Source: Cellvibrio sp. OA-2007 (GTDB lineage: Bacteria; Pseudomonadota; Gammaproteobacteria; Pseudomonadales; Cellvibrionaceae). Taken from it: DNA of 64,000 nt. The notes under the pieces are model-generated. The model made no database searches and was not told the DNA's origin. It saw only the letters and a list, made by a program, of their open reading frames with translations. The position numbers and the translations under genes were made by a program. The first letter of the stretch is position 1, and every line of letters starts with the position of its first letter. Shown one piece after another: positions 193-29,367 of the stretch. The stretch spans positions 248,001 through 312,000 of the forward strand of contig NZ_BBUL01000096.1 in assembly GCF_000953825.1 (NCBI RefSeq). Direction: 5' to 3'.

Positions 193-405
193 GTAACCCT
201 GCAGCTATACCAAGTACATACAGAGGCGATAAGCTGCCCTCTGTATGGCTTGCCCGCACAAACACCCGATAAGAATTGCTACAAAGATGGTTTATTGCGC
301 TATGGTTATGGACTAGATCAGGTAAAAAGTGCCAAATTCAGTCGCTACAGCATTCAAAGATTTTCTTTTTGCATCAATGGAATGATCGCTTTTAAAGGTG
401 AAAAA

Positions 406-2433
406 ATGCGGGTTTGCAAAAACATACAGCCATATTTCTCCACCCTATGCATGGTGCCGATAATAGGTTTTTCCACCAGCGTATTTTCAGCCAATTATTT
501 TGATCTGAGTCTGGATGAGTTATTACAGGTGCAGATCACCGGCTCGACATTAAAAAACGAATCCTACAAAACCGTTCCCTCACCAGTCACCGTATTTGAA
601 CGCAAAGAAATAGATAATTTGGGCGTTGATTACCTCTACGAATTAATCAATCTGGTGCCCGGCTATCAATTCAACCGCAATGCCGATAGCCCTTCGGGTT
701 ATACCATGAGTTCACGTGGGCGCCGAATCAGTTCCGAGGCGCGAGAAATCTTGCTGTTAGTGGATGGCCGCGTCTTTTCCGACCCGCGCACCGGTGGCGC
801 AGACGGCTCGCTACCACTGTTTCCCGTAGACCAAATCGAGCGGGTAGAAATTTTGCGCGGCCCAGGTTCCGCACTCTACGGTTCCAACGCATTAAATGGC
901 GTTATTAATGTCATCACCCGCAGTAAAGAAAACAGTGTGGCTCTGCAAGTGGGCTCAGAAAATAGAGTCATGGTTTCCGCAGCAGCTTCAACTACATTTG
1001 AATCGGGCGATGCAAATTTACTGGCACGGTTTTATCAAGATTCCGGGCAGCAGTATTCAGTAGAAGATCCGTTCACAGCCACCCAAGTTGCAACGCAAGA
1101 TCCGCGACAAACTTACGATATAGACGGTGCCTGGCGCTATCACAACACCCAAGTGCGTGTAGCGTTTCACACTGCCGACTCGGAAGACTTTTACGTGGGC
1201 GGCACTATCGATAATGACGTCAACGAATATATTCAAACCTTGCGCCAAATCAGTGTGACGCAACAGCTTTCGTTGGCTGAGAATTTAAAGTCCTCGCTAT
1301 CTATCAGCTATCTGGATATCACTCAGGACACATCGTTTCCCATCGCACCCGAGGGCGCATTTCAAAGTATTAGCTCACCTGCAAGCGATGACAGTTTTAT
1401 CATTAAGGTGAAATTTGCGGGGTCTACCTATCGTATCAATACGGATCACGACCTGTGGTTAAGTGAATTAGACAGTGTGCAGTTTGGTTTGGACTGGCAT
1501 AAAAATAATGAAACAGATGCGTATGTAAAAAATAATTTTGATTTATTGCAACTCTACAACCAGCAATTCCCAATCACTTACTATGGTGACTTTACCCAGA
1601 TCACCCCCGTGGGCACCGAACAGTCACAAGAGGCATTGGGTATTTACACCCAATACCTGCGCAACATTCATAACACCAATTTAACCCTGGGGTTAAGGTT
1701 TGATGATTATGAAAATGTAGGCAGCCATATAAGCCCACGGCTCGGCATAGTTCACCAATTCAATACAAACCACACATTCAAATTACTTTATGGTGAAGCC
1801 TACAGAGCGCCCTCGCTCAGTGAGCAGGGTTTAATTAACAACCCTGTTCTATTGGGCAATGCCGAATTGAATTACGAGGTAGTTAAATCGATTGATGCTA
1901 TTTGGTTGCTTACTGGCGACAACAGCAGTTTCTCGGTGGATTTTTTTCAGCATCGCTATAAAAACCCGATTGAAACAGTGACACAAAATGAGCTTAGAAC
2001 CTATCTCAATACTGCCAGTGAAACTACCAACGGCGCCGAGTTGGAATTGAAATATGGCCTTTCGGAAAATTGGTTATTAAATGCAAACTTCACCCATATT
2101 TTTTCCTTGTTAAAAGGTCAGTACCACGAAGCAAGCAATGTTGCATCGGTTACCTTAAATTACAGCGCACCACACTGGAACCTTAATTTTTCCGGCATTT
2201 ATCATGATTCCAAACAATTTTTAACTCCCACCGGAACCTATACAGACATTAACCCCAATACTAATCTGAACATTAAATATCGCTACCTCATCAGCAAAGA
2301 TTACGAAATCAATCTGACCGCAAAAAATGTGTTCGGTACAGCGTTTGATACACCGCCACAAGGCTCTTCTTTCTCATTGCCCATACCCAACCGGGAGCGG
2401 GAATTGGCGCTGGGCATTCAGTGGCATTATTGA
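406..2433 (+). CDS. TonB-dependent outer-membrane receptor
   Basis: Predicted 675-aa outer-membrane receptor for TonB/ExbBD-energised uptake of a large ligand (siderophore, cobalamin-like compound or oligosaccharide). The ATG at 406 is preferred because GGTG lies 5-9 bases upstream and the product then begins with a signal peptide ending near FSA, at residue 29. The frame is open further upstream but that part has no export signal. The mature start (DLSLDELLQVQITGS) and the following region (VPSPVTVF, LLLVDGR, IERVEILRGPGSALYGSNALNGVINVIT) are a classic plug domain, and the rest is a 22-strand barrel ending in an aromatic residue (QWHY). No TonB box could be assigned, and the ligand is unknown. 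The neighbours (cysteine synthase, ParA-like ATPase) do not help. Confidence 0.85.
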   Translation: MRVCKNIQPYFSTLCMVPIIGFSTSVFSANYFDLSLDELLQVQITGSTLKNESYKTVPSPVTVFERKEIDNLGVDYLYELINLVPGYQFNRNADSPSGYTMSSRGRRISSEAREILLLVDGRVFSDPRTGGADGSLPLFPVDQIERVEILRGPGSALYGSNALNGVINVITRSKENSVALQVGSENRVMVSAAASTTFESGDANLLARFYQDSGQQYSVEDPFTATQVATQDPRQTYDIDGAWRYHNTQVRVAFHTADSEDFYVGGTIDNDVNEYIQTLRQISVTQQLSLAENLKSSLSISYLDITQDTSFPIAPEGAFQSISSPASDDSFIIKVKFAGSTYRINTDHDLWLSELDSVQFGLDWHKNNETDAYVKNNFDLLQLYNQQFPITYYGDFTQITPVGTEQSQEALGIYTQYLRNIHNTNLTLGLRFDDYENVGSHISPRLGIVHQFNTNHTFKLLYGEAYRAPSLSEQGLINNPVLLGNAELNYEVVKSIDAIWLLTGDNSSFSVDFFQHRYKNPIETVTQNELRTYLNTASETTNGAELELKYGLSENWLLNANFTHIFSLLKGQYHEASNVASVTLNYSAPHWNLNFSGIYHDSKQFLTPTGTYTDINPNTNLNIKYRYLISKDYEINLTAKNVFGTAFDTPPQGSSFSLPIPNRERELALGIQWHY

Positions 2434-25990: not shown

Positions 25991-26416
25991 CTATTTTACA
26001 ACTCGTAAACCGGGCCGTTTAGGTGCAGCACCTGAGGGCGATATGGGCTCTGGCGCAGGAGAGTTTGGCGGAGATGTCGGCGCCGGCGGCTGTGGGTTTT
26101 GTTCTGGCTCAAACATCATACCTTGGCCGTTTTCACGGGCGTAAATACCCAGAATCGCACCACAGGGAACATAAATGTTGTTCACTACACCACTAAAACG
26201 CGCATTGAACGAGACGGCGGTATTATCCATAAAAAAATCTTTGATCGCCGTGGGGGATATATTCAAAATAATTTGCCCATCTTTGTTGACATGCTGCTGC
26301 GGCACCTGAGTACCTTGCACATGCGCATCAACCAAAATGTGCGGAGTGCAATTATTATCCAGTATCCATTCATAGATAGCGCGCAAAAAATATGGACGGC
26401 TGGATGTCATGGACAT
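25991..26416 (-). CDS. sspB: ClpXP specificity adaptor SspB
   Basis: 141-aa adaptor that tethers ssrA-tagged peptides from stalled ribosomes to ClpX. Residues 1-110 contain the conserved fold (RPYFLRAIYEWILDN, DGQIILNISP, FNARFSGV, YARENGQGMMFEPE). A proline-rich linker and the ClpX-binding tail RPGLRVVK follow. AAGGA before the ATG at 26416 sets the start; the frame upstream of it is not SspB-like. sspA, normally directly upstream in this gene neighbourhood, is absent: only a terminator lies between petBC and sspB. Confidence 0.95.
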   Translation of the reverse strand: MSMTSSRPYFLRAIYEWILDNNCTPHILVDAHVQGTQVPQQHVNKDGQIILNISPTAIKDFFMDNTAVSFNARFSGVVNNIYVPCGAILGIYARENGQGMMFEPEQNPQPPAPTSPPNSPAPEPISPSGAAPKRPGLRVVK

Positions 26417-26496
26417 AAAAGTTTCCTTTACAGATCGAGTGAAAAACGGCAACAAACTACAGGTTTTTTCTCCGAGGCTCAATAAGCTGTACCGCA

Positions 26497-26530
26497 AACA
26501 AAACGGGCGACCTAAGTCGCCCGTTTTGTT
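26497..26530 (-). terminator. Terminator of the petA-petBC operon
   Basis: A perfect 15-bp stem (AACAAAACGGGCGAC with GTCGCCCGTTTTGTT) has a four-base loop. It begins directly after the petBC stop codon and upstream of the sspB start. A-rich and T-rich arms allow termination. Confidence 0.92.
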
Positions 26531-26531
26531 A

Positions 26532-28766
26532 TCAGTGAATATCTCTCCAGAATTCGCGATTCAGGAAGTACACAAAGACAAACAGTATCAACAAGAAGCC
26601 CAGGACGTAATAACCCATCGATTGACGCTTCACTGCGACAGGCTCAGCCACATACTCAAGGAAGTTAACTACATCGTAAACCGCCTCATCAAATTCAGCA
26701 GCAGACATGCTCCCTTTGATTTTGCCTTCCTTCAGCGCACCGCAATGTTCATCCATTTCAATTTGACCAACATCATTGCGCAAAGCGCCACCATGGTGAT
26801 TAAGTTTTGGGCCAGCTCCGCACTCAAGCAAACCTTGTGGGCCAATCAATACATGGGGCATGCCCACATTGGGGAATACGCGATTGTTAACCCCCCAAGG
26901 ACGAGTTTCATCCTTGTAGAAGTTTCGCAGATAGGTATACAACCACTCAGGTGAACGCGCGCGCGCCACCAGTGTCAGATCGGGTGGAACCACACCAAAC
27001 CATACTTTTGCTTGCTGTGGTTTCATCGCAATTTCCATCAATTGGCCGATACGCTGATCGCCAAAAATCAGGTTTTGCTCCATCAAGTTGTGTGGGATAC
27101 CCAAGTCATCAGCAACACGCTCATAGCGTGAATACTTGGCCGAGTGACAACCCATGCAGTAGTTGGCGAAATATTTTGCACCGCGCTGTAAAGACTCTTT
27201 GTCATTCAGGTCTGGCTCCATGTGATCACAGGGAATCGCGCCGCAGTTGAACGCACCTTCGCTAGCAACCGCTTTGATAGGCACCACGGCAAGAATGATA
27301 AATAACGCCAAACCGGCAAGCACAACCAATGCTGGCAAACCTTTCGACTGGGTACGGGTTGGCTCAACCAGATCCTTATCGCGCGCAGCCAGAATTGGCA
27401 GCACCGCAAAAATCGCCGCCAACAGGAAGCAGAGGATCAATAACAATACCGGAACATCGCCACCAATGTATTCGAAGCCCATCCAGGTAAAGACCACAAC
27501 AAACACACCACACAGAACCCAGGAAATTTTGGATTTCGCTTTTTCCGGGCTAGTGGTTGTCCACACCGGCATAGTCAGGAAATAGGCGAAGTAAAACGCG
27601 GTAGCAATTTGCGACAACAGGGTTCTGCCCTCTGTCGGCGCTTTAACACCCAAGTAACCCAACACCACAAACATCGCCGCAAAAGCGATTAGCATAATGC
27701 GCGGAATATGGCCGCGATAACGCATGGACTTCACCTTACTGCGATCCAGCCAAGGCAATACAAACAGCAGCGCAATTGCTGCGCCCATAGCCGCAAAGCC
27801 GAGCAATTTTGCAGTCAATACCAGCGGGCCAATTTCGATTGGCATGGTCACTGCACGCAGCACCGCATAGAACGGGGTGAAATACCAAACTGGAGCAATA
27901 TGCAGCGGGGTTTTCAGGTTGTTAGCTTCTTCAAAGTTAGCGTACTCAAGGAAGAAACCACCCATCTCCGGCATAAAGAACATAATGAAGCAGAAGGCAA
28001 ACAGGAACACTGTGATACCAACCAGATCGTGCACTGTGTAGAACGGATGGAAAGGAACACCATCGCGCGGAATGCCATTTTCATCTTTGTTCTTTTTGAT
28101 CTCCACACCATCTGGGTTGTTAGAACCCACTTCGTGCAATGCCAGAATGTGCATCACCACCAACGCCAATAATACAATTGGCAAAGCAACCACGTGCAGG
28201 GCGAAAAAGCGGTTAAGGGTAATGCCAGAGATAAGATAATCACCGCGAATCCACTGCACCAAGTCATCGCCTATACCAGGAATAGCGCCAAACAAGGATA
28301 CGATTACCTGTGCGCCCCAGTATGACATCTGACCCCAAGGCAATACGTAGCCCATAAAGGCTTCGGCCATCAGCACCAAATAAATAGTCATGCCGAAAAT
28401 CCACACCAGCTCGCGCGGGGCTTTATAAGAGCCGTACATCATGCCGCGGAACATGTGGAGATACACCACAATAAAGAAAGCAGAGGCGCCGGTGGAGTGC
28501 ATGTAGCGCAACAGCCAACCGTAATCCACATCGCGCATAATGTATTCAACCGAAGCAAACGCACCTTCAGCGGACGGGTTATAACTCATAGTCAACCAGA
28601 TACCGGTAACCAATTGGTTTACCAATACCAGCAGCGAAAGTACGCCAAAAAAATACCAGAAGTTAAAATTCTTGGGCGCATAGTACTTGGCCATGTGCGT
28701 ATCCCATGCGCGCTGCACCGGAAGACGCTTATCAACCCACTGCCACAAATCAACTAACCAATTCAT
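26532..28766 (-). CDS. petBC: Fused cytochrome b / cytochrome c1 of the bc1 complex
   Basis: 744-aa fusion of PetB and PetC, the quinol-oxidising and cytochrome c-reducing subunits of complex III in the inner membrane. Residues 1-410 are cytochrome b with haem ligands H90, H104, H191 and H206 and the Qo-site motif PVWY at about 292-295. Three further hydrophobic segments (about 415-500) follow. The c1 domain has the haem-binding CMGCH (537-541), an axial-methionine candidate in NVGMPHV, and a C-terminal anchor (MGYYVLGFLLILFVFVYFL). AVA-S at about 499-502 could be a signal-peptidase site that releases c1. The ATG at 28766 follows the petA stop directly and has AGGGG upstream. Separate petB and petC genes are usual in gammaproteobacteria. 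Confidence 0.93.
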   Translation of the reverse strand: MNWLVDLWQWVDKRLPVQRAWDTHMAKYYAPKNFNFWYFFGVLSLLVLVNQLVTGIWLTMSYNPSAEGAFASVEYIMRDVDYGWLLRYMHSTGASAFFIVVYLHMFRGMMYGSYKAPRELVWIFGMTIYLVLMAEAFMGYVLPWGQMSYWGAQVIVSLFGAIPGIGDDLVQWIRGDYLISGITLNRFFALHVVALPIVLLALVVMHILALHEVGSNNPDGVEIKKNKDENGIPRDGVPFHPFYTVHDLVGITVFLFAFCFIMFFMPEMGGFFLEYANFEEANNLKTPLHIAPVWYFTPFYAVLRAVTMPIEIGPLVLTAKLLGFAAMGAAIALLFVLPWLDRSKVKSMRYRGHIPRIMLIAFAAMFVVLGYLGVKAPTEGRTLLSQIATAFYFAYFLTMPVWTTTSPEKAKSKISWVLCGVFVVVFTWMGFEYIGGDVPVLLLILCFLLAAIFAVLPILAARDKDLVEPTRTQSKGLPALVVLAGLALFIILAVVPIKAVASEGAFNCGAIPCDHMEPDLNDKESLQRGAKYFANYCMGCHSAKYSRYERVADDLGIPHNLMEQNLIFGDQRIGQLMEIAMKPQQAKVWFGVVPPDLTLVARARSPEWLYTYLRNFYKDETRPWGVNNRVFPNVGMPHVLIGPQGLLECGAGPKLNHHGGALRNDVGQIEMDEHCGALKEGKIKGSMSAAEFDEAVYDVVNFLEYVAEPVAVKRQSMGYYVLGFLLILFVFVYFLNREFWRDIH

Positions 28767-28767
28767 A

Positions 28768-29367
28768 TCAAGCCCCTTGATCTTCGCCAATCACAACTAT
28801 GGACTCGCTCTCATAACGATGAGGAGGAACTTCCAGATTCAACGGTGCGGGTACAGCGACATATACACGACCGGCAAGATCGTATTTGGAACCATGGCAT
28901 GGACAAAAGAATCCACCCTGCCACTTTGCACCACCCAAATCTGCCGCGCCTACGTCCGGGCGAAATGCAGGGGCACAACCCAAGTGCGTACAAACCCCTA
29001 ACAAAATGGCGAACTCTTTGTTAATTGCACGCTCGGCATTTTTGGCATAGTCAGGCTGTTGAGGCTCATCGGAGTTGGCGTCCAATAACACCCCTTGCTC
29101 CTCCACTTTCTTCAAGCTATCCAAAGCGGCTTGGGTACGACGCACGATAAAGACTGGCTTGCCGCGCCACTCAACCGTAACCATAGCACCCGGTTCGATT
29201 TTGCTGATGTTGTACTTCACTGGCGCGCCAGCAGCTTTCGCTTTGGCGCTAGGATTCCATGAACCCACGAATGGAACTGCGGCACCCACAACACCAACCG
29301 CACCCACTGCACAAGTGGCTCCGATTAATACGCGGCGGCGCGTTTGATTTACTGCGTCATTACTCAT
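28768..29367 (-). CDS. petA: Rieske iron-sulfur subunit of the bc1 complex
   Basis: 199-aa subunit that passes electrons from quinol to cytochrome c1. An N-terminal RRRVLIG stretch and hydrophobic helix (about 10-35) form a Tat-type signal anchor. CTHLGC and CPCHGS hold the cysteine and histidine ligands of the 2Fe-2S cluster. GGGGAG precedes the ATG. It is the first gene of the petA-petBC operon; its TGA is one base from the petBC ATG, implying coupled translation. Confidence 0.97.
   Translation of the reverse strand: MSNDAVNQTRRRVLIGATCAVGAVGVVGAAVPFVGSWNPSAKAKAAGAPVKYNISKIEPGAMVTVEWRGKPVFIVRRTQAALDSLKKVEEQGVLLDANSDEPQQPDYAKNAERAINKEFAILLGVCTHLGCAPAFRPDVGAADLGGAKWQGGFFCPCHGSKYDLAGRVYVAVPAPLNLEVPPHRYESESIVVIGEDQGA

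Follow-up and report, generated by a model that had tools for sequence, protein, structure and literature searches.

A fused cytochrome b-cytochrome c1 gene in Cellvibrio and an optional pair of helices between its two halves

In the window that we analysed, a stretch of 64,000 nucleotides from Cellvibrio sp. OA-2007, cytochrome b and cytochrome c1 lie in one reading frame with three hydrophobic segments between them. Cytochrome b has eight helices and its C-terminus in the cytoplasm. With c1 in the periplasm, the number of helices that link the two must therefore be odd. The question that this locus raises is whether the fusion is real and, if it is, what the three helices are, given that a preliminary description of this DNA read them as a topology-preserving linker and left two of them unexplained. 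We consider it likely that the gene, petBC, stands for petB and petC in an ordinary three-subunit bc1 operon (petA-petBC) with b and c1 in one chain, and that it carries a topology-neutral hairpin which is probably a copy of cytochrome b helices G and H. The features are:

28768..29367, minus strand: petA, Rieske iron-sulfur subunit, directly upstream of petBC (TIGR01416, E=3.2e-67, over the cut-off)
26532..28766, minus strand: petBC, fused cytochrome b-cytochrome c1 gene, 744 aa plus stop, single frame
27558..28766, minus strand: cytochrome b core, residues 1-403, eight helices (Pfam; 8smr chain I matches 8-407; H90/H104/H191/H206)
27561..27710, minus strand: helices G and H of cytochrome b, residues 353-402, whose sequence type tracks the presence or absence of the hairpin (sliding-window trees, diagnostic positions)
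27384..27539, minus strand: optional two-helix hairpin, residues 410-461, absent from short relatives (helix counts, alignments, model helices), possibly a degenerate G-H copy (HHalign)
27336..27383, minus strand: b tail, residues 462-477 (RDKDLVEPTRTQSKG..), by alignment the equivalent of the REKTxPEPxRV tail of short and split cytochrome b
27261..27335, minus strand: c1 signal-like helix, residues 478-502, ending in PIKAVAS (conservation; candidate signal peptidase site)
26535..27260, minus strand: cytochrome c1 domain and C-terminal anchor helix, residues 503-744 (PF02167 at 522-742; 8smr chain J matches 513-741)
27144..27158, minus strand: haem c motif CMGCH, residues 537-541, read in the translated frame (C537, C540 and H541 invariant)
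26500..26527, no strand: perfect 12-bp inverted repeat with A/T-rich ends just past the petBC stop, read from the letters and missing from the pattern-scan listing

The gene runs on the minus strand, which the preliminary description did not give, from an ATG at 28766 to a stop codon at 26534-26532; an alternative TTG start, 24 bases 5' of the ATG, is also open. Pfam finds Cytochrome_B (PF00033) at residues 27-214 of the product, Cytochrom_B_C (PF00032) at 280-393 and Cytochrom_C1 (PF02167) at 522-742. The frame itself, Pfam and the alignment all agree with the earlier statement that one unbroken frame holds the cytochrome b histidines and then CMGCH at 537-541. In our alignment of 39 long-type sequences, H90, H104, H191 and H206, which we take to be the haem b ligands, are invariant, as are C537, C540, H541 and M636. 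We see what is expected of a proteobacterial bc1 complex, which is a four-histidine cytochrome b, a CxxCH c1 with an anchor (model helix 689-735) and an adjoining Rieske gene, and also the FbcH-type layout, with b and c1 in a single unbroken frame and the c1 signal helix as the joint. The best solved relative is the Pseudomonas aeruginosa bc1 complex in the bc1-cbb3 supercomplex 8smr, where chain I (b) matches residues 8-407 (E=2.4e-197) and a separate chain J (c1) covers residues 513-741 (E=3.1e-70). With Foldseek, the 50 listed of 170 matches were all complex III chains, which gives no lead on another source for the extra helices.

Further upstream of petA are the genes for ribosomal proteins S9 and L13 and ZapE. 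Past the petBC stop, the 12-bp inverted repeat is likely a transcription terminator, and the gene downstream encodes the ClpXP specificity-enhancing factor, presumably sspB. In 25991-26531, sspB comes directly after petBC and the inverted repeat with no sspA between petBC and sspB; in Pseudomonas, sspA is located between petC and sspB. The order petA-petBC is similar to that of the P. aeruginosa bc1 operon. Two sequence details are recorded here for their own sake. The quinol-site motif, PEWY in its textbook form, is PVWY at residues 292-295 and is invariant in the 39 long-type sequences. There is also a cysteine pair, CGxIPC (residues 508 and 513), at the start of c1, which is kept in at least 90% of the 39 sequences and is missing from L039, L050, L223, L224, L077 and L078.

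The petBC fusion is confirmed as real. A search of the family with the c1 query matched 144 of 144 genomes, and the c1 frame was at least 624 aa long in 141 of them. Since frame length alone does not prove a fusion, we checked the DNA of 80 family genomes for both b and c1 and found them in one frame in 79: 44 of the long type, 34 of the short type and one with five linker helices. As for the exceptions in frame length, the matches in G052 and G003 start less than 150 bases from a contig end, and in G023 (locus L008, from an 85% complete genome) b and c1 are in different frames, probably through a sequencing error between them. The close relatives do not all have split genes, which had been named as one ground for doubting the fusion. 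We reject the idea that an assembly or sequencing artefact joined two genes and give it a negligible probability, because its sole hint is the broken frame of the low-quality relative L008 and it is contradicted by the single frame in 79 of 80 family genomes and by fused genes at 22 of the best 80 of 592 candidate named loci.

Among those best 80 loci, the fused genes come from Cellvibrio, Endobugula, Gilvimarinus, Porticoccaceae, Zhongshania, Halieaceae, Seongchinamella, Pseudohongiella and others, and the 58 split ones include Pseudomonas, Marinobacter and Halomonas; the closest relative there is a Cellvibrio metagenome bin with 94% identity. The preliminary description held that gammaproteobacteria usually have separate petB and petC, and it proposed a search for fused genes across relatives. 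We ran that search. The general statement holds for most of the class sample, which is split, but not for the window's own order, in which the fusion is widespread. Of the 293 genomes of the order, 278 match the c1 query, and the loci fetched from among the best ~150 places are fused in at least families f1, f3, f8, f10, f11, f20, f21, f37, f38, f39, f41, f42 and f43, with split genes in many other families. In the class sample, with one genome per family, c1 was found in 114 of 140 genomes and frames longer than 600 aa only in G000 and G551. Ten of the longest c1 frames were fetched (L102-L111, including G551; others above 400 aa, such as G537, fell outside this check) and all ten are split, so that we saw no second fused genome in this sample besides G000. 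The 662-aa c1 frame of G551 has no b and was rejected as a fusion. In the phylum sample, the b C-terminal domain was found in 133 of 150 genomes, seven of them with frames longer than 600 aa. The fused ones are G000, G101 (of the window's family, judged from frame length alone) and three genomes of one family outside the class (G688, G591 and G657); in G639 and G675 the c1 frame has no b and the genes are split, so we rejected both.

The b-c1 fusion itself is a known kind, and what is new here is the variation in helix pairs. PMC4013037 reports the fusion in all Bradyrhizobiaceae, some Rhodospirillales and Planctomycetes, and fusions in the present class may already be counted in its frequency figure across proteobacteria. 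On a tree of 149 proteins, built with the linker left out and without the three loci from outside the class (L226-L228), the fused and split states require four changes. Approximately unbiased tests on 35 of the 149 rows gave a p-AU of 0.083 for a single clade of all fused genes, which is not rejected, 0.44 for the main group alone and 0.283 for the main group plus L069. Near the main fused group we observed four split loci (L094, L096, L099 and L101) whose b tails end in VTMK or VTMR and in three of which the c1 start overlaps the b stop (offset -1). This layout may be a precursor of the main fusion.

How the two halves are joined is clearest from the simpler relatives. In split relatives, b ends in a tail of the type MPFYTRMEKTKPVPERVTG, and c1 starts at an offset of +2 from the b stop in 49 of 91 loci and of -1 in 17 (66 of 91 together). 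In the short fused proteins, the b tail runs directly into a hydrophobic signal-like segment that ends in P-[IL]-K-A-V-[GA]-[AS], a motif that is PIKAVAS at residues 496-502 of petBC. Over 129 fused rows the P is kept in 128, the K in 109, the A in 116 and the V in 118, in support of the suggestion that the last of the three segments is a c1 signal-like helix; one group of loci (L091, L092, L135, L138-L141 and L194) has a somewhat different joint, VTGRW or similar. Judged from these alignments, the minimal fused form is the b tail plus the c1 signal helix, as in 72 of 128 distinct fused proteins.

On the motif, cleavage after AVA of the signal-like helix is plausible. Small residues are kept at the expected -3 and -1 positions, and a 1991 study of FbcH reportedly obtained two separate proteins from the single gene. 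Both points argue against the alternative that the chain stays uncut, with b and c1 as one polypeptide and the signal-like helix kept as a permanent extra membrane helix. We think that an uncut chain is unlikely, even though the lysine in PIKAVxA is unusual for its conservation (109 of 129 rows) and there is a precedent in the c1 of Aquifex aeolicus, where PMC10041115 describes an extra N-terminal helix as a fused supernumerary component.

The other two helices are a separate matter. An AlphaFold2 model built from 39 sequences has helices at 353-372, 379-397, 413-432, 440-461 and 479-500, with ten-residue pLDDT means of 70-93 over residues 341-500 (the whole-model mean is 66, and the model is poor elsewhere). 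The last three of these, together with the helix count, bear out the three hydrophobic segments between b and c1. They do not form one fusion linker, as had been supposed, because the short fused relatives manage with the b tail and a single signal helix, and the hairpin is an optional addition before the tail. The long class, which includes petBC, differs from the short one in six compared pairs by an insert of about 53-60 residues that forms two helices and lies between helix H and the tail. Among the split cytochrome b tails, 85 of 87 lack any extra helix, and the exceptions, L103 and L110, have two before the tail. Since these two split proteins also carry such helices, the extra pair looks like a feature of cytochrome b and not of the fusion. 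One split protein of the phylum sample, L241, has one extra helix, which lies after its tail.

At the main settings the counts follow a simple rule. The 129 fused rows, which are 128 distinct proteins (L123 and L220 are the same), have one linker helix in 72, three in 56 (55 distinct) and five in one (L055). At two of five helix settings the number is odd in 129 of 129 rows, with no even count; at the other three settings, 3, 4 and 7 of the 129 rows have two helices, all of them long linkers with one helix below the threshold. In the first count L081 had four helices and L087 two, as the end of helix H was included. The view that the topology is preserved and the c1 domain placed in the periplasm is thus upheld. 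In L055 (G123), which has an 815-aa frame and a 194-aa linker stretch, the hairpin region holds two further helices, once more an even number. The usual description of cytochrome b is of an eight-helix core that does not vary. We found no description of an extra C-terminal hairpin in the literature that we searched, which was mostly outside subscription papers and so is weak evidence of absence.

Where did the pair come from? We favour a degenerate tandem copy of helices G and H, which profile comparison suggests. Aligned with HHalign against G-H of 160 short and split proteins, the hairpin scores 27.1 (81% probability) over 52 columns in register, and G-H is its best cytochrome b window, in a comparison that includes a few shared tail columns. 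When those columns are removed, the score is 21.2 (47%, 36 columns). None of 200 full or 300 local column shuffles reaches this value and the reversed profile scores 9.4, while windows at the end of helix F score up to 20.8 over 9-20 columns. Short proteins alone give 18.8 without the tail columns. Against long-type G-H the score is 18.4, a value surpassed by seven helix-F windows and in 5 of 300 local shuffles. Tested one sequence at a time, 9 of 44 long proteins rank at or below 10 of 200 local shuffles, and among these nine the G-H register is kept only in L067, L010 and L029. The clearest case is L067, with a score of 50 that 0 of 200 full shuffles and 1 of 200 local ones reach. The Cellvibrio hairpin's own best alignment to cytochrome b is out of that register, and the two split proteins with extra helices, L103 and L110, fail the single-sequence test for G-H duplication.

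The alternative is that the hairpin is no copy of G-H and was, once or several times, acquired from another membrane protein or formed de novo. This would fit the single-sequence similarity, which is weak and mostly out of register, and the local match at the end of helix F, which is about as good. It does not account as well for the full-register profile match with its shuffle results, nor for the spacing from the end of the hairpin to the tail, which is the same as that from helix H to the tail. We regard capture or a new origin as a real possibility that falls somewhat short of being probable.

Whether it began as a copy or not, the hairpin has come and gone many times. The 149-protein tree, from which the linker is omitted, requires at least 19 changes among the split, short, long and extra-long states, and for 95 fused main-group proteins the all-column tree requires 14 between the long and short types. 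Presence of the hairpin differs even within one genus. Trees of 60-column windows for the same 95 rows show where the two types part: the long/short changes number 2-5 in five windows from 302-361 to 362-531, 8 in window 377-546 and 15-26 in the remaining windows. Helices G-H separate long from short almost cleanly, with two changes. The 14 positions that best separate 63 short from 56 long rows are 353, 354, 355, 358, 361, 365, 388, 391, 398, 401 and 462-465, in a comparison to which the hairpin columns, not being comparable between the types, do not contribute. In six long/short pairs, most 20-column blocks of G-H have an amino-acid identity of only 0.45-0.75. For the four closest pairs, the values upstream of G-H are mostly 0.85-1.00 and those in c1 mostly 0.7-1.0. 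The two other pairs and L024/L025 have a more uneven profile.

This association could come about through repeated gain and loss of the hairpin with co-adaptation of G-H, or through horizontal exchange of a G-H block with or without the hairpin. We put exchange at just under an even chance. For L052, L025 and L063, the G-H region is nearest to same-type proteins from different genera and at least one of the flanks to opposite-type relatives, and in three pairs there is a left edge at about residue 352, with the tail as the right edge in two of these. Synonymous matches of L052 in G-H favour other long-type genera, and a three-way count favours import. Synonymous distance in G-H is also greater between opposite-type than between same-type congeners in g24 (0.59 against 0.38), g27 (0.54 against 0.36), g1 (0.62 against 0.56) and g28 (0.66 against 0.55). 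However, the overall excess is small (G-H minus upstream is 0.103 for 53 opposite-type pairs and 0.078 for 194 same-type pairs), g23 has no excess (0.41, against 0.61-0.62 across genera), for L025 its congeners, and with them change in place, are favoured in two of three counts, and the long-type L062 has short-type nearest neighbours in G-H. We also considered two external causes of the switching. Presence of a cbb3 oxidase was rejected as the cause of the long or short type, as 138 of 144 family genomes have ccoN over the cut-off and the remaining ones are all less than 90% complete. For a competitor-delivered toxin as a driver of the G-H changes, a literature search listed nothing relevant.

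For the chain as a whole we propose the following arrangement. An eight-helix cytochrome b is followed in turn by the two-helix hairpin, the original b tail and c1 signal helix, and c1 with its anchor. The signal helix supplies one membrane crossing and the hairpin two, so that the topology is unchanged and c1 is in the periplasm. Signal peptidase probably cuts past the signal helix (AVA/S), and c1 would then be free in its normal form. A tandem duplication of G-H is the probable source of the hairpin, which would pack beside these helices, as their covariation with it would suggest, and G-H would change whenever the hairpin is gained, lost or exchanged. A one-face arrangement of the diagnostic positions was not significant (p 0.12 and 0.055).

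The position of G-H points to a possible role. According to PMC7876108, the bounds of the interface in an engineered Rhodobacter capsulatus bc1-cbb3 complex are set by cytochrome b TMH5 and TMH7, the c1 helix and helices of CcoP and CcoN, with the helices of CcoH and cytochrome cy lodged in it. TMH7 would be helix G. If so, a hairpin placed beside G-H would lie at or near the surface where a bacterial bc1 complex meets the cbb3 oxidase, and our working guess is that it has a stabilising or docking role. A fuller version of this idea, which we find somewhat unlikely, is that the hairpin is a duplicated swappable module with at least 14 gains, losses or exchanges, in even numbers only as c1 is tethered to it, each with a change in oxidase-facing G-H, and that it acts as a built-in supernumerary subunit that tunes supercomplex assembly. 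The membrane domain of cytochrome b varies here by the helix pair, under a topological rule set by the fused c1. Close relatives with and without the hairpin thus offer a natural experiment on what extra helices do for complex III stability, processing and supercomplex contacts.

Among known systems, the c1 of Aquifex aeolicus (PMC10041115) is like Cellvibrio in that an additional helix is built into a catalytic subunit; in Aquifex the helix is on c1 alone, whereas the Cellvibrio-type hairpin sits on b and is gained or lost two helices at a time. The P. aeruginosa bc1 complex in 8smr has separate PetB and PetC and an eight-helix b with no hairpin, and Cellvibrio differs from it in both respects. 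The parallel with Bradyrhizobium-type fusions that the preliminary description drew is supported by the known fusions and by L226-L228. These are the fused genes of the one family outside the class, we infer that they are alphaproteobacterial FbcH, and they have a one-helix joint, as in the short fused proteins. Bradyrhizobium FbcH and related fusions are likewise one b-c1 gene in which the b tail leads into the c1 signal helix, with a signal-peptidase-like motif before c1. The FbcH-type linkers stop at that one helix, whereas the hairpin is added in Cellvibrio and in 54 more of the 128 distinct proteins.
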